Source of the DNA: Kaistella soli
GTDB taxonomy: Bacteria > Bacteroidota > Bacteroidia > Flavobacteriales > Weeksellaceae
Reading direction: 5' to 3'
Assembly: GCF_019038595.1 (NCBI RefSeq)
Contig: NZ_JAHOPF010000004.1
Coordinates: 191,747 to 255,746 of the forward strand
DNA: 64,000 bases
The position numbers were made by a program, and so were the translations under genes. The notes beneath the pieces were generated by a model. It did not search any database and was not told the DNA's origin. It saw nothing but the letters and a program-made list of their open reading frames with translations. The first letter of the stretch is position 1. Every line of letters starts with the position of its first letter. Below, one piece after another: positions 3,553 to 15,878 of the stretch.

Positions 3553-3921
3553 TTAAAGTACTTCAGGAGCTAATGAAATGACTTTCATATATTCTTTATC
3601 TCTCAGTTCACGGGCAACAGGTCCGAATACACGGGTACCTCTCATTTCGCCGGCTGCGTTAAGAAGAACACAAGCGTTATCGTCGAATTTGATGTATGAA
3701 CCATCTTTTCTTCTTACTGCTTTTTTCGTTCTTACTACAACTGCTTTAGAAACAGTTCCTTTTTTTGCGTTCCCCTGTGGTGTAGAATCTTTGATAGTAA
3801 CTACGATCTTATCACCAACTGAAGCGTATCTTCTTCTGGTTCCTCCCAGAACTCTGATAACTAGTACTTCTTTTGCACCTGTGTTATCAGCAACTTTTAA
3901 TCTTGATTCGGTTTGTAACAT
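3553..3921 (-). CDS. rplN: 50S ribosomal protein L14
   Basis: A 122-residue protein, the usual length. It starts [20 protein letters not shown] and has [20 protein letters not shown] and [21 protein letters not shown]14 forms part of the subunit interface and contacts L19. Its ATG overlaps the last base of rpsQ, which suggests translational coupling. Confidence 0.98.
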
Positions 3922-7467: not shown

Positions 7468-8097
7468 TTATTTTCTTAAGTTTTCCTGAAATTTTTCGAT
7501 AGCACCTTCTAAAAATACAATCTCGCCAGCGTTTACTAAATCATAAGAACTGATCTCGTTATAAGTCAAAACTTTAGTTTTAGGTAAATTTCTTGATGAC
7601 AGATATACATTCTTGTTAGCTTCCGGTAAAATATAAAGAGATTTTTTACCTTCAAATCCTAATGCATTGTTCAGTGTGATAAATTCTTTAGTTTTCGGAG
7701 CTTCAAAGTTGAAAGCTTCTAAAACTTTAATTGAATTGTCTCTCATTTTCTGAGAAAGCACAGATTTTTTTGCTAATCTTTTCAAAGCTTTGTTCAGTTT
7801 GAATCTGTAGTCTCTTGGTTTTGGACCGAAAACTCTACCTCCACCTCTGAAAGTTGGCGATTTGATATCACCGTATCTCGCAGATCCAGATCCTTTTTGC
7901 TTTTTAAGCTTTCTTGTAGAAGCAGTAATTTCGCTTCTTTCTTTTGATTTATGTGTTCCCTGACGCTGAGCAGCAAGGAATTGTTTCACTTCTAAGTAAA
8001 CCGCGTGCTGATTTGGCTCAATTCCGAAGATTGCCTCATCTAACTGAACTGTTCTTCCGGTTTCTTTTCCTGATGTATTGAATACTACTAGTTCCAT
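7468..8097 (-). CDS. rplD: 50S ribosomal protein L4
   Basis: A 209-residue protein. The extended loop with [20 protein letters not shown] and [20 protein letters not shown] is the L4 signature; the loop reaches into the exit tunnel. L4 represses the S10 operon in E. coli, but no leader of that kind can be recognised here. Its first 10 bases overlap the end of rplC, which suggests coupled translation. Confidence 0.97.
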
Positions 8098-8714
8098 TTT
8101 CTGATAATTACATAAGAATTTTTTGCTCCCGGAACAGCACCTTTTACTACTAAAAGATTTTGTTCTTCATCTACTCTTAACACTTCAAGGTTTTGAACGG
8201 TAACTTGCTTACCACCCATTCTACCTGCCATACGCATTCCTTTGAATACTCTTGACGGGTCGGAACCTGCACCAATAGAACCTGGGGCTCTAAGTCTGTT
8301 GTGCTGTCCGTGAGTCGCTTGCATTACCCCACCGAAGTTGTGTCTTTTAACAACCCCCTGGAAACCTTTTCCTTTTGAAGTTCCTGTAACGTCAACATAC
8401 TCGCCTTGCGCGAACAGATTAACTTTTACTTCATCTCCTACAGATAAGTTGTCTACGAATTCATGATAGAATTCTACCAACTTAGCTTTTGGAGCAGAAC
8501 CAGCCTTTTTAAAATGGCCAGCTAACGCTTTACCAACGTTCTTTTCACTCTTGTCATCGAAACCAAGCTGAGCAGCTTTGTACCCATCTTTTTCTACGGT
8601 TCTGACCTGTAAAACCGAGCAAGGACCTGCCTGAATAACAGTACACGGCATGTTTTTGCCGTTCTCGTCAAACAAGGAAGTCATCCCGATTTTTTTACCA
8701 ATAATACCTGACAT
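8088..8714 (-). CDS. rplC: 50S ribosomal protein L3
   Basis: A 208-residue protein starting [20 protein letters not shown]. The loop with [21 protein letters not shown] and the [20 protein letters not shown] segment (with the conserved Gln that is methylated in some bacteria close by) are diagnostic. It is the first gene of this operon: rpsJ, its upstream neighbour in many bacteria, lies 4.7 kb away at 13.4 kb. A good promoter is seen about 100 bp upstream of the start codon. Confidence 0.97.
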
Positions 8715-8810
8715 TGTTTATATATATTATTTAAAATTCACTATTATCAATCGAGGTTTAGGTGATTTCTATTTCTGAAATAGGCATACTTCTTCCCTAA
8801 ATTGAGTGTG

Positions 8811-8840
8811 CAAATGTATGAAGTTTTTTTGAATTGACAA
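8811..8840 (-). promoter_or_regulatory. Bacteroidota-type promoter of the rplC-rplO operon
   Basis: Read on the minus strand, TTG (8838-8840), a 19-bp spacer and TACATTTG (8811-8818) match the Bacteroidota sigma-ABfr consensus TTG-N19-TAnnTTTG exactly. Transcription would begin near 8805, giving a leader of roughly 90 bases before the rplC ATG at 8714. The same spacing is found at rpsL and rpmE2. Confidence 0.75.
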
Positions 8841-8874
8841 ACAGGCAGTTAAAAATATTTTGATATTTAATACA

Positions 8875-8901
8875 AAAAACTTCAGATACTCTGAAGTTTT
8901 T
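8875..8901. terminator. Hairpin terminator in the left repeat copy
   Basis: The stem CTTCAGA/TCTGAAG (8880-8886 with 8890-8896, loop TAC) is extended by A5/T5 on both sides, so it could act in either direction. It corresponds to the terminator at 12560-12587 after the complete permease gene. Confidence 0.6.
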
Positions 8902-9011
8902 GAAATGTCTGACTGTGAAACGGTTAATTATAACCCGGCAAATTTTCAACTTTAAAAATAAACTGACTGAAATTTGAGTAAAAACTGAATCTTTCAGGAA
9001 ATCGGAAAGAG

Positions 9012-9110
9012 CTACTGGTCTTCTTTTTTTATTTCTTTCTTTATTCTAAGATTAGCATCTTTCAATTCCTCATCGTATTTCGCAACGTCGTTCGAGTATC
9101 ACATATGCAA
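9012..9110 (-). pseudogene. Remnant of the 3' end of an iron permease-like gene
   Basis: On the minus strand, the last ~33 codons before the TAG at 9012-9014 align without gaps to the C-terminus of the complete protein at 12699-13181. Shared residues include DLHM near the start and EIKKEDQ at the end. The middle is diverged and an in-frame TGA follows DLHM. The last ~8 codons and the downstream 100 bases are essentially identical to the complete copy, whereas the upstream part is not. It is a non-functional fragment left by duplication or recombination. Confidence 0.8.
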
Positions 9111-9665
9111 ATCATAAAATAGGTCCTAAATGCAGTTTGGGAAGTTGACCGGACAATTAGTCATTAAAATTCGTGAAGAAAAAGGAACTCAACATTTATT
9201 CGATCAACTGTAAACTTGAGAACTAATTTTGAGAAATGGAAGATGTTGAAATTCTGAGGTTAATGAAGATTGCGACTGGACTACGGGAATTAGTAAAGAA
9301 ACCAATCACAGATTTTTCGGTAGGAAGAGCTCACTTGTACTTTAAGATTTAATCAAGTAAAAAAAGCAAACTGTCGGAAATTCCATCGGTAAAAAAGTAT
9401 ATTTAATCTGCTACTCCACTTCTTCCCGTTTAGAAAAAACGATTGAGATACGATTTTGGACATTCCTACTTTAAAACTATCTGGAAAATATCGATCTTTA
9501 CCATATATAAAGCAGAGATTTCTGACCAACAATTAAAAGAAGTGAAAAAACATTTAAACAGAAACTACCCAATTAATATATTGCATAGCCAAAATCATAC
9601 TTCGAAAGCTTTACATGGAACCTGTTCTTATCATAATCACTTTAGAGAAAAATTAAATTAAAAAT
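9111..9665. other. Non-coding or decayed stretch between the repeat and the lipoprotein gene
   Basis: No convincing gene. Short plus-strand open stretches are seen: 28 codons from the ATG at 9130, 38 codons from an ATG at 9236 (MEDVEILRLMKIATGLREL...), and 72 codons from a TTG at 9443 (MRYDFGHSYFKTIWKISIFT...). None shows a domain I recognise or a start signal. The consecutive short frames on one strand look like the remains of one or more broken genes brought in with the island. Confidence 0.4.
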
Positions 9666-10070
9666 ATGAAAATTATATTGCTACTACACTGCTGTTTCGT
9701 TTTGCTCCTCAATTGTCAAACTGCGACATTTCAAAAAAACAGTAATAATCAAAATCCAGATCAATCTTTTGTTGGAACCTGGAGCGGAGCTTTACCCAAC
9801 AGTAAAAGTCCAATTCATAAGAGTTGGCAAATTACAAGAAAATCAGATGGAAGCTTTACTAAATCTGAAATTTTGTCCATCAAAGGAAGAATGCAAAAAA
9901 TAAACAGAAAAGGTACCTGGTGGATAAAAGATGGGATGTATTATGAAAAGTATGACTTAGATGAAATCTACCAAATTATGGAATATAAGTTACTGAAAGA
10001 TCATAAAATTCAATTCACATCGAAAGAAGATGGTTCTGTTTCTGTAGAATCGCCAGAACTACAGAAATAG
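9666..10070 (+). CDS. Lipocalin-like lipoprotein, small, function unknown
   Basis: A 134-residue protein. The N-terminus is a lipoprotein signal (MKIILLLHCCFVLLLNCQTA; LLNC lipobox with the acylated Cys near residue 17). The mature part starts with a short Asn/Gln linker, then FVGTWSGALP, WQITRKSDGSF and KGTWWIKDGMYYEKY, a pattern common in small lipocalin-like beta-barrel domains of Bacteroidota. It is probably anchored to a membrane facing the periplasm or surface. It lies in the island between rplC and rpsJ, convergent with the metalloprotease gene and separated from it by a bidirectional terminator. The family assignment is by pattern only. Confidence 0.7.
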   Translation: MKIILLLHCCFVLLLNCQTATFQKNSNNQNPDQSFVGTWSGALPNSKSPIHKSWQITRKSDGSFTKSEILSIKGRMQKINRKGTWWIKDGMYYEKYDLDEIYQIMEYKLLKDHKIQFTSKEDGSVSVESPELQK

Positions 10071-10093
10071 ATTTCCAATTGATTGTTAAAAAA

Positions 10094-10128
10094 AAATGGC
10101 TGCTTCCCTTATGGTGAAGCAGCCATTT
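10094..10128. terminator. Bidirectional hairpin terminator between convergent genes
   Basis: A perfect 13-bp stem, AAATGGCTGCTTC (10094-10106) with its complement at 10116-10128, and a 9-base loop. An A-run lies to the left and T-rich sequence follows on the right. It lies between the 3' ends of the lipoprotein gene (+) and the metalloprotease gene (-). Confidence 0.85.
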
Positions 10129-10148
10129 GTATCCACGAAAAGCTCTAG

Positions 10149-12374
10149 TTATTTTTTAATAAATTTAGTTTTGGTTACACTGCCATCATTTGCAAATGAA
10201 ATCACGTAGGATCCCTTTAGTAAACTGCTTACATTGATCTCCCCGTCATCAATCTGTCCTTTTGCGACTAATCTTCCTGTTGCATCATAGATTGTATAAG
10301 TCGATTTTGCCGAAATGTTTTTAACGAAAAGAACATCAGTTGCAGGATTAGGATAAATTTGAACTATATTTTTCCCAATTTCTGAGGTTGCAAGTGCTGC
10401 GGTTAAAGTTACCTTATTCACTGCGTAAAATACGTTTCCGATTGCAGAAACTCTTACGTAAGGAGTCGAAGCCCCTAAAGATGAAGGGAAAGTAACAGCC
10501 GCTGTTCCATTATTGGGAGCAGAAGCAGAAAGAACTGTCCAAGTGGCACCGTTATCAGTAGTATAATCAATTTTTACATTTGCAACATTGTATGGAGCAG
10601 CTGTAGTCCCTGAAACAACCCAAGTCACATTTACAGGACTTCCAGCAGCACCAGAAGCTGCATTTACTTTAAAAGCTGCGGCGGCACCTACTACAACAAC
10701 CTGATTTGCAGAGACTGTTTGAGCTTGTCCTCCAATTTTATTATCGCGTACGGTAACACGGAAATTGGTAGTTCTTGCTACAGTAGAAGCAGCCTCAAAA
10801 TCGGCTGTATTTTTTACAGCACCACCTAATACAGTAGATAATTTGGGGAAATATCTGGTTGGTGAACTTACTGCAGGCAAAGATCTAAAGCTAGCTCCAG
10901 AAGCAGTATTTCCGATATTTGATTTTGTAACACCATTACTCAGTTTACTATAATCTACTTGTTCCCAAGAATAGGTAAGTGCATCCATATCTGGATCAGT
11001 AGCCACTGCGGTGAGAACAAATGCAGTTCCTTTTGGAATTGTATAAGTGGTAGACATTGGCGTAATTACTGGTGGATTATTTGAAATAGGTGTTTCTACA
11101 TCAACACTAGTTGCAGCAAGAACAGCTTGAACCTGATCAATACTTACACTATGAAAGTAAGGGTCAGAATGCGCTTGTACATCGGTAGTAGAACCTGTAA
11201 TACCTGCATATCCCATAATAGTAGAACCAGAACCTGGCTCCATTTCTTTATTTAAGTAATTTTCATAAAAACTGTATGTATGGCTATCACCTAACTGATG
11301 GCCCATTTCATGTGCTACATAATCAATGTCAAAATTATCACCGAAAGGCTGATTATCTGCCGGAGAGGTAATACCACTTCCTTTGTAATTATCTGGTGAT
11401 AAATAGGCATAACCACAATCTTGCGGATCTGCGGGATAAGAGGTAAAAGCGGTATCATTACTTCCGATACAACCGATACATCCAGCATTACCACCACCAC
11501 CAGTCGCGCCGAATAAATGACCAATGTCAAAATCATTATCATTAACCCCAAAAGCTCCATTATGCAGGGTGTTCATCAATTCATAATTCCATTTGCAAAA
11601 TTCTGAGGCAGGGCTGAAAGGGTCTGTTGCAGCATCAGTGAAAATTAAATTGGGAGCATTAATAACATTTAGATGTAAATTAAACTCTTGTTCAAAAACC
11701 CCATTAACCCTCGTCATCGTTGCATTGATTTGAGCTAGTGCACCTGCTGTCCCATTAAAGTACGTCGTGTATTCTCCTGTTACTGCCATTGCAAGTCTCA
11801 ATGTATGGAATTTTTTGTTATTGGACTTACCCTCGGCATCATCCATGAATTTCTGTAATCTAGCAACAGAAGCAACACCCTCTTTGGTTTTGCAGGCAAA
11901 TGCATGTCCTTCTTTACTGGTTTTGCTGTGTAATGAGTAAATCGATTTCTCACCGTTGGCTGCTTCGATAAATTCATATTTCCCGTTGCTGATCATCATC
12001 GACTGAAAATCATTGGGAGCCACACTGAAGCGGATGTATTTAGAAGGATCATCTATCCCGGTTCCTACATAAGATCCCAGTTGGTACTGCGCAGCGACAG
12101 CTTCATCAAAAACCGGAAAACTATTTACTGCAAACCTTTCCATTTTACCTTCAGCATTCGGAATTTCAATCGTTACAGGTTTGCTCAGGTCACCCACTTT
12201 CTGGGCAGACAAAAGTTGCATCCTGATCTTGTTCATGTCTAATTTGTAATAGACAGAATTGTCGCTTTTTCTAGTGATAGATTCGTTTCCTGCTGTTTTG
12301 CTCCATTGCGCCTTTGCAGTGAAAGAACATAAAGTAAGTAATCCTAGAAATAAAGAAGTAATATTCTTATTCAT
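10149..12374 (-). CDS. Secreted reprolysin-like (M12B-type) zinc metalloprotease with T9SS sorting domain
   Basis: A 741-residue exported protease. Residues 1-22 are a signal peptide (ending FTAKAQ). The catalytic domain has the metzincin zinc motif HEMGHQLGDSH (about residues 354-364: HExxHxxGxxH) and a Met-turn, STIMGYAG, some 30 residues later. The following part is a Fn3/PKD-like beta-rich region (TPMSTTYTIPKGTAFVLTAV, then AAAFKVNAASGAAGSPVNVT). The last ~75 residues form a T9SS C-terminal domain (QIYPNPATDVLFVKN ... TKFIKK), so it should be exported through the type IX system and released or attached at the surface. Reprolysin-like T9SS proteases are common in Chryseobacterium. It is in an island bracketed by direct repeats. 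A -10 box lies 19 bp upstream. Confidence 0.93.
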   Translation of the reverse strand: MNKNITSLFLGLLTLCSFTAKAQWSKTAGNESITRKSDNSVYYKLDMNKIRMQLLSAQKVGDLSKPVTIEIPNAEGKMERFAVNSFPVFDEAVAAQYQLGSYVGTGIDDPSKYIRFSVAPNDFQSMMISNGKYEFIEAANGEKSIYSLHSKTSKEGHAFACKTKEGVASVARLQKFMDDAEGKSNNKKFHTLRLAMAVTGEYTTYFNGTAGALAQINATMTRVNGVFEQEFNLHLNVINAPNLIFTDAATDPFSPASEFCKWNYELMNTLHNGAFGVNDNDFDIGHLFGATGGGGNAGCIGCIGSNDTAFTSYPADPQDCGYAYLSPDNYKGSGITSPADNQPFGDNFDIDYVAHEMGHQLGDSHTYSFYENYLNKEMEPGSGSTIMGYAGITGSTTDVQAHSDPYFHSVSIDQVQAVLAATSVDVETPISNNPPVITPMSTTYTIPKGTAFVLTAVATDPDMDALTYSWEQVDYSKLSNGVTKSNIGNTASGASFRSLPAVSSPTRYFPKLSTVLGGAVKNTADFEAASTVARTTNFRVTVRDNKIGGQAQTVSANQVVVVGAAAAFKVNAASGAAGSPVNVTWVVSGTTAAPYNVANVKIDYTTDNGATWTVLSASAPNNGTAAVTFPSSLGASTPYVRVSAIGNVFYAVNKVTLTAALATSEIGKNIVQIYPNPATDVLFVKNISAKSTYTIYDATGRLVAKGQIDDGEINVSSLLKGSYVISFANDGSVTKTKFIKK

Positions 12375-12392
12375 GTTAAATTTTTAAGGCGA

Positions 12393-12400
12393 CAAATGTA
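12393..12400 (-). promoter_or_regulatory. Possible -10 box of the metalloprotease gene
   Basis: TACATTTG on the minus strand matches the TAnnTTTG consensus and lies 18 bp before the ATG at 12374. No TTG is seen 19 bp upstream, so the promoter would be weak or dependent on an activator. Confidence 0.4.
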
Positions 12401-12540
12401 AATAAAAACAGTCTATATTTTTAATAAAATATTGAAATATCTATCATATTTATTACACAAGTATTATTTAAATAAATTAAACCTTACAGAAAAGTCCAAC
12501 GGTTATGAAAAATAAAAAAGTCCCATCAAAAAATGAATAG

Positions 12541-12800
12541 TATTTTGATATTTAATGCAAAAAACTTCAGGGTATGCTGAAGTTTTTGGAATGAACTGAA
12601 TTTGAAACGGTTAATTATAACCCAGCAAATTTTCAACTTTAAAAATAAACTGACTGAAATTTGAGTAAAAACTGAATCTTTCAGGAAATCGGAAAGAGCT
12701 ACTGGTCTTCTTTTTTTATTTCCTCCTCTATCCTCCGGTTCCGCATTTTCAGCTGCTGATTGTCTTCCGCGGCATCAATGGAGTGTGACATATGCAGATC
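12541..12800. repeat. Right copy of the ~255-bp direct repeat flanking the island
   Basis: Matches 8856-9110 in the same orientation. It covers the last ~33 codons of the iron permease-like gene and about 160 bp downstream of it, including its terminator. The core 12603-12722 is identical to 8916-9035 except for one base. Confidence 0.9.
12560..12587 (-). terminator. Terminator after the iron permease-like gene
   Basis: The stem AAAAACTTCAG (12560-12570) pairs with CTGAAGTTTTT (12577-12587) around a 6-base loop; the minus-strand transcript ends in a U-run. It is the counterpart of the hairpin at 8875-8901, with a different loop. Confidence 0.7.
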
Positions 12801-13181
12801 CTCATCCTCCTCGGCGAGCGATGACAGCTTTTCATAATATTTATGCAGCTTATCGAGTTCCTTTTCGGTCAAATCCTCGATATCGACGATTCTGTTGCTT
12901 GCTTTTTCATGGGCTGCAATCAGTTCGTTCAGTTTGATCTGTATGGCTTTAGAATCTTTATTCTGCGCTTTCTGAATGAGGAAAACCATGAGAAAGGTAA
13001 CGATCGTTGTACCGGTGTTGATCACCATTTGCCAGGTCTCAGAAAATTTGAATATAGGACCCGTAGCCGCCCAGATAATTACCAAAATTGTAGCGCCGAT
13101 AAAAGCGCCGGCACTTCCGGTAAATTTACTTGCCCAATTCGCAAAATCGTCAAAAAAACTTTTGTTCTGTCCGTTTTCCAT
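12699..13181 (-). CDS. Low-affinity iron permease-like membrane protein
   Basis: A 160-residue protein when started at the ATG at 13181 (MENGQNKSFFDDFANWASKF). An upstream extension of 32 codons exists but does not look like coding sequence. Two membrane helices are seen: GAFIGATILVIIWAATGPIF and MVINTGTTIVTFLMVFLIQK. They are followed by QNKDSKAIQIKLNELIAA and an acidic coiled C-terminus ending IKKEDQ. This is the pattern of the low-affinity iron permease family (Iron_permease, first described from yeast Fet4); the bacterial members are small and their transport role is not proven. It is located between rpsJ and the protease. Its 3' end is duplicated at 9 kb. Confidence 0.85.
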   Translation of the reverse strand: MENGQNKSFFDDFANWASKFTGSAGAFIGATILVIIWAATGPIFKFSETWQMVINTGTTIVTFLMVFLIQKAQNKDSKAIQIKLNELIAAHEKASNRIVDIEDLTEKELDKLHKYYEKLSSLAEEDEDLHMSHSIDAAEDNQQLKMRNRRIEEEIKKEDQ

Positions 13182-13382
13182 TTGTATTAATTTTTGATCA
13201 CGAAGTGTGCGAACAAATAGTGTGCTAATATTATCCGTCCTAAAATGTACTGCAATCCGAAATATGACAGCTCTCAAGTAAGATTAAGGAAAAAACAAAG
13301 CAGCTGTATGTTTTTGGTATTAAAAATAGAATTAATAAACCGGAGGATTTTATCAATAAATCCTGATCCCCGAAAACAAAAA

Positions 13383-13412
13383 AAATTCCCTCTTCTTTCG
13401 AAAAGGGAATTT
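13383..13412 (-). terminator. Terminator of the str operon after rpsJ
   Basis: AAATTCCC (13383-13390) pairs with GGGAATTT (13405-13412). The inner part (TCTTC with GAAAA) extends the stem with one mismatch, leaving a TTTC loop. On the minus strand it is followed by a run of T. It lies 24 bp after the rpsJ stop and so separates rpsJ transcription from rplC. Confidence 0.8.
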
Positions 13413-13435
13413 CTATCATAGCAAAGTGCAAATTA

Positions 13436-13741
13436 TCACACTTTAATTTCTACGTCAACTCCTGAAGGAAGCTCTAATTTCATTAGGGCATCTACAGTTT
13501 TAGAAGAAGAAGAATAGATGTCCATCAGTCTTTTGTGAGCTGAAAGCTGGAACTGTTCTCTTGCTTTTTTGTTTACGTGCGGAGATCTCAATACGGTGAA
13601 GATTCTCTTGTTCGTTGGCAAAGGAATCGGGCCGTTTACCACAGCGCCGGTTGCTTTTACCGTTCTCACGATTTTCTCAGCAGATTTATCTACTAAATTG
13701 TAATCGTAAGATTTTAATTTTATTCTGATTCTTTGTGACAT
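13436..13741 (-). CDS. rpsJ: 30S ribosomal protein S10
   Basis: A 101-residue protein with [20 protein letters not shown] at the start, and [20 protein letters not shown] and [20 protein letters not shown] in the middle: clear S10. S10 (NusE) also joins transcription antitermination complexes. Here it closes the str operon and is followed by a terminator, rather than by rplC. Confidence 0.98.
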
Positions 13742-13760
13742 TTTAATTTAGATTTAAAGA

Positions 13761-15878
13761 TTAACCTCTTGCTTTTTCGATTACAGATTCAGCTACGTTT
13801 GAAGGTGCTGCTTCGTATTTCTCGAATTCCATAGAAGATGTAGCTCTACCTGAAGAAAGTGTTCTCAATGTAGTTACATAACCGAACATTTCAGAAAGCG
13901 GAACGAATCCTTTGATTACTTTCGCATTGTTACGGTCATCCATACCATTTACAGTACCTCTTCTTTTGTTAAGGTCACCTACGATATCACCCATGTATTC
14001 TTCTGGAGTTACCACTTCAATTTTCATGATTGGTTCCATGATTACAGGTTTAGCTTTTCTACCAGCTTCTTTGAAGCCCATCTTCGCTGCAAGTTCGAAA
14101 GAAAGTGCATCTGAATCCACAGGGTGGAAAGATCCGTCTTTCAAAGTTACTTTGATACCTTCAATTTCGAAACCTGCTAAAGGACCATTCTTCATCGCTT
14201 CTTTGAAACCTTTTTCTACGGAAGGAATAAATTCTTTAGGAATGTTACCCCCTTTGATTTCATTGATGAATTCAAGACCTGGTTTGTTGTCATCAGCCGG
14301 AGCCAATTCGAACACGATATCAGCAAATTTACCACGTCCACCAGATTGTTTTTTGTAAACTTCTCTGTGGTTAGCAGACATTGTAAGGTTTTCTTTGTAC
14401 TCTACCTGTGGCTGTCCCTGGTTAACTTCAACTTTGAACTCTCTTCTCATACGGTCAACAATAATGTCGAGGTGAAGTTCACCCATACCGGAGATGATTG
14501 TCTGTCCTGAAGCTTCGTCAGTTTTAACCTGGAAAGTAGGATCTTCCTCAGCAAGTTTTGCTAAAGCGTTACCCATTTTATCCTGGTCAGCTTTAGTCTT
14601 AGGCTCTACCGCGATACCGATTACAGGATCAGGGAATACCATAGATTCAAGAACGATAGGATGTTTCTCATCACAAAGGGTATCACCAGTTTTGATGGAT
14701 TTAAATCCAACTGCTGCACCAATATCCCCAGCTTCGATGAATTCAATAGGCTCTTGCTTATTGGCATGCATCTGGAAGATACGGGAGATTCTTTCTTTAT
14801 TGTTTGATCTTGTGTTCAAAACGTAAGATCCAGCATCAAGTCTTCCTGAATAAGCTCTGAAGAATGCAAGTCTTCCTACGAAAGGATCTGTTGCAATTTT
14901 AAAAGCTAATGCCGCGAAAGGCTCAGTAACTGAAGGTTTTCTGGAAATAGGCTCATCTGTTCTTGGATCTGTACCGTCGATTGCCTCCTTGTCCATTGGT
15001 GAAGGAAGATATCTACAAACAGCATCAAGCATGAACTGTACTCCTTTGTTTTTGAATGAAGAACCACATGTCATCGGAATGATGCTCATATCCAAAGTTG
15101 CAGCTCTAAGTGCAGCATGAATTTCCTCTTCAGTAATGGAGTTTTCGTCTTCCATAAACTTCTCAAGAAGATTTTCGTCATATGCAGCGATTTCTTCAAT
15201 CAGCTGTGCTCTGAACTGCTTCACTTCGTCAGCCATCTCAGCCGGGATCTCTACGATATCAAAAGTAGAACCATGATTTTCATCGTGCCATACAATCGCA
15301 CGGTTTTTCACTAAATCTACAACACCTTTGAAATCAGCTTCGTCACCGATTGGCAATACGATTGGAACTGCATTAGAACCAAGCATTTCTTTTACCTGCT
15401 TACAAACGTTCAGGAAATCAGCTCCCTGTCTGTCCATTTTATTTACGAATCCCATACGTGCAACTTTATAGTTGTCCGCAAGTCTCCAATTGGTTTCAGA
15501 CTGAGGTTCTACTCCATCTACTGCAGAGAAAAGGAATACAAGTCCGTCAAGTACACGAAGGGAACGGTTTACCTCTACGGTAAAATCAACGTGTCCCGGT
15601 GTATCGATAATGTTGAAGTGATAATCTTTGGCTTCCGGAAGAGCTTTTCCCTGCTCAGTTGGGAATTTCCAGTCTACAGTTACTGCTGCAGATGTAATGG
15701 TAATCCCTCTTTCAGCTTCCTGCTCCATCCAGTCGGTAGTAGCACCACCTTCATGGGTTTCACCAATTTTGTGATTCTTTCCGGAATAAAATAAAATTCT
15801 TTCTGTAGTGGTGGTTTTCCCTGCATCAATGTGCGCAGCGATACCAATGTTTCTTGTAAGTTTAAGATCTCTTGCCAT
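13761..15878 (-). CDS. fusA: Translation elongation factor G
   Basis: A 705-residue translocation GTPase of standard length. The G-domain motifs are visible: [10 protein letters not shown] (P loop), DTPGHVDF (G3) and [10 protein letters not shown] (G4). Domain IV and V segments such as [18 protein letters not shown] and [20 protein letters not shown] follow. It lies 6 bp after rpsG and 19 bp before rpsJ, the common str-operon position. Confidence 0.98.

Follow-up and report, generated by a model that had tools for sequence, protein, structure and literature searches.

Ribosomal protein operons are textbook cases of fixed gene order. The closest described systems in which new genes settle between conserved neighbours, taken here from excerpts of the respective papers, are of different kinds. 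Transfer hotspots without recognisable mobile elements, in which recombination takes place at flanking core genes, were reported by Oliveira et al. (2017, PMC5635113). Insertions at the boundary of the str and S10 operons are described for bfd-bfr in Gammaproteobacteria and ilv-leu in Bacilli (PMC8046335). In Vibrio cholerae, modules of the type VI secretion system (T6SS) undergo sequential displacement akin to homology-facilitated illegitimate recombination (PMC5361080), and one more relevant class is formed by replacement flexible genomic islands (PMC4033161). The locus considered here lies in a stretch of 64,000 nucleotides from Kaistella soli (contig NZ_JAHOPF010000004.1, positions 191,747–255,746 of the forward strand), hereafter the window, where rpsJ (ribosomal protein S10) and rplC (L3) are separated by a protease gene, a lipoprotein-like open reading frame (ORF), decayed sequence and two copies of the 3′ end of an iron permease gene. 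Comparison with related genomes demonstrates that the rpsJ–rplC junction is a gene-turnover hotspot in the Chryseobacterium–Kaistella group, and we read this turnover at an operon boundary as driven by recombination.

Like the hotspots of PMC5635113, the junction has fixed core borders, high turnover, no integrase where one was searched for and competence-type genes in the genome; unlike them, as far as the excerpts go, it is bordered by ribosomal genes of a usually unbroken cluster and is compared between species rather than strains. With PMC8046335 it shares the operon boundary and the presence of inserted genes (there the operons later separated fully in many species), but the two events analysed in the portion of that paper used here were single insertions inherited by a clade, whereas at our locus the content varies between most species and some events are marked by gene-end duplications. 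The resemblance to the T6SS arrays, as excerpted, consists in a new module adjoining a constant anchor, older gene ends shifted downstream and 3′ remnants left behind; the difference is that our cargo does not represent effector–immunity modules and the role of anchor would fall to a ribosomal gene or the permease. In replacement islands, too, a given location is occupied by differing genes, frequently of exposed or secreted function, but according to the same kind of excerpt they are swapped as whole clusters, whereas the content here leaves remnants. The kind of phenomenon is already known; a description of this particular hotspot or of its gene-end scars was not found in the open-access literature searched.

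In all 36 genomes of the genus rplC and rpsJ flank the interval, and its accessory content differs. The distance between the two genes varies from 264 to 9,805 nt in the 34 closed intervals, the value for G006 (8,089) being too short, as its interval was ended at a truncated rpsJ copy and genes past this copy are absent from the counts of architectures, gains or losses and pairs. Two more intervals are open (G013 and G027); their content was used in part, both were excluded from the gap list and from the pair comparison, and by coordinates the gap in G027 is about 23 kb. By comparison, in 41 genomes 17 other junctions of the ribosomal cluster (rplC to rpsE) had gaps of no more than 338 nt. Altogether 27 interval architectures were registered among the 36 genomes, including near-empty ones (264 nt in G012, which belongs to the window's own subclade, and 404 nt in G023) and those with the permease only (G031, G033, G019). 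At least 49 gains or losses are required by nine gene families on the ribosomal-gene tree, and this tree disagrees with the interval content: G025 and G027 are separated by about 0.018 changes per site, yet have different genes. Presence of TonB receptors and PepSY proteins was clustered on the tree no more than shuffled labels. Protein clusters c1 and c3 showed strong clustering (0/300 shuffles), which means that some of the content is inherited.

The cargo comprises GLPGLI-type proteins, TonB receptors with PepSY proteins, proteases of the type IX secretion system (T9SS), glycoside hydrolases and a multicopper oxidase. It was characterised by a Pfam scan of 42 ORFs of at least 100 aa; the remaining 67 of 109 belong to clusters c0–c3, of which c0, c1 and c3 were scanned by one member each and c2 was represented by the window's permease. 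No recombinase was found among the 25 shown of 42 Pfam families matched by these 42 proteins, transposases not being searched for, and an integrase of family PF00589 was present within the interval in none of six genomes searched (G000, G004, G012, G014, G025, G031). The window's genome encodes DprA-type and ComEC-type domains, and two Riemerella species, placed by NCBI in the family Weeksellaceae as is our organism, are reported to be naturally competent; transformation is therefore a plausible route of entry.

Outside the genus the picture is mixed. Among 84 genomes of other genera, classified by hand from coordinates, 16 had gaps below 540 nt (all of genera g8, g19, g22, g28 and g29), 34 more had both genes in line within 19.5 kb, with 32 of these gaps exceeding 1 kb, and six had gaps of about 20–24 kb; in the other 28 the genes were on different contigs, far apart, inverted, or one of them was not found. 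For 61 named loci outside the group (L090–L150), 56 gaps were of 31–411 nt, two Aquimarina loci had 1,109 and 3,113 nt, and three Sphingobacterium loci had no rpsJ in the stretch examined. Some named loci are the same records as the numbered genomes, and counts never mix both sets. In eight genomes (G036, G085, G108, G066, G103, G037, G070, G071) rpsJ and rplC stand on one contig far apart or in opposite orientation, and the junction is therefore also a breakpoint for larger rearrangements.

The features of the window are collected in Table 1. A first-pass annotation, made from the letters of the window, had noticed that a segment of about 255 bp, the end of an iron permease-like gene with its terminator, is present at both borders of the interval, that a 120-bp core in it differs by one base between diverged flanks, and that so sharp an identity boundary points to gene conversion or a crossover within the core. 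This duplication is real. A 217-nt repeat pair (8897–9113 and 12584–12800, spacing 3,687) is prolonged by adjoining pieces up to the borders given in Table 1, with an overall spacing of 3,685–3,687. In the whole-repeat alignment of 265 columns the near-identical core occupies columns 79–198, while only 49/78 columns are identical on the coding side (columns 1–78) and 55/67 on the terminator side (columns 199–265). The longest identical run, 98, was reached in none of 20,000 column shuffles, and the pattern fits the proposed conversion or crossover. Beyond its terminator, which is of the rplC-side type, the right copy has about 18 more bases in common with the left one (one mismatch), followed by divergence. 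When the genome was searched with positions 8850–9050, the 40 candidates scored out of 91 gave the two repeat copies and one 36-bp match, which is the hairpin of the right copy itself read on the opposite strand. The permease belongs to family PF04120 (Low affinity iron permease), in agreement with the first label; the left copy holds its last 33 codons interrupted by an in-frame stop and is indeed a broken remnant, the right one terminates an intact gene of 160 codons.

Table 1. Features of the rpsJ–rplC interval in the window and the evidence for them
Feature	Position	Strand	Evidence or remark
rplC (L3), fixed left border	8088..8714	-	present in 36/36 genomes of the genus
rplC promoter-like motif TTTG-N19-TACATTTG	8811..8841	-	sequence motif
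Left repeat copy	8851..9113	-	repeat search and alignment
Left (rplC-side) terminator hairpin	8870..8905	-	folds at -12.0 kcal/mol
Near-identical core, left	8916..9035	-	119/120 columns
Permease remnant, codons 128-160 with in-frame stop	9015..9113	-	translation; match of the remnant scores weakly
c1 remnant (c1 has 322 aa in relatives), starting near codon 124 and spread over more than one frame	9247..9568	+	match to relatives' protein
Weak remnant of c3 C-terminus (about 890 aa in relatives)	9515..9649	+	score 5.8, E 0.0013
134-aa lipoprotein-like ORF	9666..10070	+	56% relative in G004 interval
T9SS-sorted reprolysin-like metalloprotease, 741 aa	10149..12374	-	75-77% relative in G004 interval
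Right repeat copy	12536..12800	-	repeat search and alignment
Right copy of rplC-side type terminator	12556..12592	-	folds at -10.8 kcal/mol
Near-identical core, right	12603..12722	-	119/120 columns
Intact permease PF04120, 160 aa	12699..13181	-	Pfam match and reading frame
rpsJ terminator	13370..13425	-	folds at -19.6 kcal/mol
rpsJ (S10), fixed right border	13436..13741	-	fusA 13761-15878 before rpsJ

The usual position of the permease gene distinguishes the two copies. It was counted in 15 of the 36 genomes; 11 of them (G005, G022, G026, G009, G018, G031, G025, G033, G019, G021, G002) have it as the gene nearest to rplC, and in G013, G029 and G035 it stands farther to the right. In the window this rplC-side place is occupied by the broken copy, not by the complete one. 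The terminator of the left copy leads straight into the rplC promoter, likewise in G005, G022, G026, G025 and G033; in these five genomes and in G034 a terminator of the left type adjoins rplC. We read the left permease as the resident copy and the right one as a relocated duplicate of the rplC-side block, because it bears a terminator of the rplC-side type.

In the window the order is rplC – permease end – c1 remnant – c3 trace – lipoprotein – protease – permease – rpsJ. Between 9113 and 9247 the two genes, permease and c1, have lost their 5′ portions. The decayed sequence noticed at the first inspection represents remnants of c1 and, weakly, of c3; a Pfam search with c1 gave no match. The T9SS metalloprotease was also recognised properly, as it combines a reprolysin-like domain with the sorting tail Por_Secre_tail. 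The label "lipocalin-like" for the 134-aa ORF is unproven, since it has no Pfam match and its similarity to NF045606 (20.3 bits) is below the cut-off of 60. In G004 the same locus is found intact as rplC – c1 – c3 – lipoprotein – protease – rpsJ, and its DNA is 74% identical to the window over 9596–12439, the alignment starting within the end of G004's c3 (G000, L071 and L072 were excluded from the nucleotide alignments of the interval to relatives). G002 has the permease beside rplC with a shortened c1 adjoining it, and G055, G093 and G104 of another genus keep this order for c1, protease and permease. The cargo is probably older than the permease duplication, because its order is the same at the G004 locus and in these three genomes.

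The order of a complete gene, cargo and truncated copy had suggested that a circle bearing the cargo and a homologous permease end was integrated by a single crossover. Comparison of relatives bears out one part of this proposal: the interval varies, cargo-free states exist (near-empty G012, permease-only G031, G033 and G019), and the island with its repeats is not shared by all relatives. Arrival of the cargo on a circle found no support. As to the state before insertion the relatives point both ways: sister genomes have no cargo, but G004 carries it at this locus with the genes in that order. The broken copy sits at the usual permease place, the cargo is decayed on its left side, the three main ORFs match no integrase or replication family, and there was no megablast match among plasmids. 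We consider such integration quite improbable. Tandem duplication of a unit extending from the permease 3′ end through the protease, with subsequent loss and decay, would explain why both copies have a common 3′ sequence not seen in the relatives shown in that comparison. However, it would leave a second protease–lipoprotein copy or require its loss, and the left copy leads directly into the rplC promoter, which makes this scenario improbable as well.

We infer a different history, which as a whole, from the hotspot state to the route of entry, appears to us slightly more probable than not. At an earlier stage the interval probably read rplC – terminator – permease – c1 – c3 – lipoprotein – protease – rpsJ. 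Permease and c1, which are divergent, would then have lost their 5′ ends in a deletion that spared the broken end of the permease and the remnant of c1 next to rplC, while a second permease copy with its 3′ region and the rplC-side type terminator would have been placed beside rpsJ and be the intact one. Later gene conversion between the two 3′ ends would have kept the core near identical while the flanks diverged. New genes of the hotspot most likely enter by recombination in which homology is provided by flanking genes or by genes already resident, the incoming DNA probably being that of relatives.

Some data do not favour this history. The protease adjoins the permease also in the three genomes of another genus (G104, G055, G093), so the rpsJ-side permease could be older than assumed; the spacer between the two genes in these genomes has no terminator of the rplC-side type. 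The permease tree places the window's copy with weak support. For positions 13196–13376, which lie upstream of the right permease, none of the relatives compared gave an alignment, and the arrival of this stretch is therefore not datable; stretches inside 13377–13430, in the region of the rpsJ terminator, do align with many relatives. Matches of the c3 and left-permease remnants score weakly. The nearest sisters of the window are devoid of c1, c3, lipoprotein and protease, so the cargo block needs several losses or a transfer, and the proposed starting state was found in one piece in no genome compared. The suggested conversion is an interpretation of the identity pattern alone.

Gene-end duplications are not limited to the permease. 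Second, 5′-truncated copies of rpsJ were found in two of the 36 genomes of the genus (G006, G014) and in four of 84 genomes of other genera (G086, G100, G046, G074). In the latter search 86 of 90 genomes had an rpsJ match; a weak rpsJ-like match in G116 with 29.5% nucleotide identity to its own rpsJ was excluded. In all six cases the complete copy is farther from rplC and the truncated one nearer, with 1.3–1.5 kb and two main ORFs between them. Sequence of fusA clearly precedes the complete rpsJ in G086, G100, G006 and G014; for G046 and G074 only about 70 nt upstream were available, with a four-residue fusA match. Since a single junction is common to G006 and G014, and another to G046 and G074, at least four duplication events are counted. 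An origin of the extra rpsJ ends from another species could not be demonstrated by nucleotide comparison, the host's own rpsJ being closest or tied.

Despite the common insert junction, both rpsJ copies in G006 and in G014 bear the downstream sequence of their own genome, which, as a pattern of sequences, fits homogenisation by gene conversion and would be its independent sign. These are the only rpsJ pairs subjected to the run test; the longest run was rarely reached by chance in G006 (5/5,000 shuffles), and the test was weak in G014 (179/5,000), which speaks against our interpretation.

The ORFs bracketed by rpsJ copies in G006, G014 and G086 encode a small cysteine-containing secreted-looking peptide and a GLPGLI-type protein. 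Such peptides (83–103 aa) were also seen directly upstream of GLPGLI-type genes beside rpsJ elsewhere (L195:557-1673, L159:674-1808 and rpsJ-proximal modules of G006, G008, G016, G017, G025); those scanned had no family match above the cut-off. In G046, G074, G100 and G025 the region downstream of rpsJ has a promoter-like stretch and, after it, hexamers in tandem (TTTTAG or TTTAGA); they stand ahead of the rpsJ-proximal modules and, as estimated by eye, differ in copy number.

The truncated copies begin abruptly, and the joining event itself is not visible. In three genera they start at codons 57–60 (G086/L159, G100/L165, G046/L182, G074/L181), which is closer than scattered breaks would suggest, the total being only four events. 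If an unrecognised recombinase integrated DNA site-specifically into the 3′ ends of genes, this coincidence and the uniform length of the bracketed segments would be accounted for. Nevertheless no recombinase was found among the bracketed ORFs scanned (the GLPGLI ORFs of G006 and G014 were assigned by cluster), the break in G006 and G014 is at codon 3, the window case involves a different gene, and the identity is long rather than short; we regard this mechanism as highly improbable.

One-event displacement by homology-facilitated illegitimate recombination deserves more attention, though we still find it unlikely. Incoming DNA anchored at rpsJ would have brought permease, terminator, protease, lipoprotein and the c1 fragment, and its free end would have joined inside the resident rplC-side permease, sparing the 3′ end of the latter. 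A single junction (9114–9246) does part the truncated permease from the truncated c1, the six genomes with rpsJ duplications show the corresponding arrangement of complete and truncated copies with two ORFs between, and a similar model was proposed, in the excerpt seen, for the stacked T6SS immunity genes of V. cholerae (PMC5361080). On the other hand, the donor must already bear a terminator of the rplC-side type on the rpsJ side, and the same junction is explained by deletion between divergent permease and c1, which are neighbours in G002. In a broader form, there is a possibility, which we put forward tentatively and hold to be far from the likeliest, that the rpsJ 3′ end is a recurrent entry port: modules would arrive with a copied gene end and terminator beside rpsJ, displacing older ones towards rplC, and the interval would be a layered record of arrivals, with repeated ends kept alike by gene conversion. 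If this is true, the cluster of breakpoints at rpsJ codons 57–60 in three genera would mean that the port has some sequence preference.

The ability of the junction to tolerate insertions may be conditioned by the edges of the interval, the rpsJ terminator and the rplC promoter. The motif TTTG-N19-TACATTTG at 8811–8841 we take to be the Bacteroidetes-type promoter consensus. In its strict form it precedes rplC in 18 of the 36 genomes versus 0.15 expected from base shuffles. This promoter motif is not sufficient for the tolerance, because it is also present in 27 of the 61 named loci outside the group. The idea that an own rplC promoter is a novelty of the expanded clade was dropped, the motif being found in 14/19 loci L071–L089 and also in those 27 of L090–L150.

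Two more ideas were abandoned. A cassette array with repeated spacers was suggested by G025, in which three spacers resemble one another and two of these precede intact ORFs; it is not claimed, because 25 of the 34 closed intervals have one copy of the sequence downstream of rpsJ. A polarity, with older genes near rplC, rests on non-independent pairs: the same gene was found at the rplC end versus the rpsJ end in 11 versus 5 of 15 pairs closer than 0.06, and in 16 versus 10 of 44, 31 versus 24 of 101 and 65 versus 35 of 336 farther pairs. An Rfam search of 8600–13800 gave three matches, all far under the gathering scores, and no structured RNA is claimed for this reason. As for the 741-aa protease, its 57%-identical relative with a longer open frame of 975 aa lies about 43 kb away (G000:C15:157157-159082), matches at E 1e-60 or better are present in all 36 genomes of the genus, and a single place of 26% identity was found in one phage record.

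Thus, one junction of the ribosomal cluster became a site of gene turnover in one bacterial group, and the neighbouring junctions stayed fixed. This provides natural controls for the question of why a particular operon boundary admits new genes, and the gene-end duplications may reveal how genes enter without integrases.

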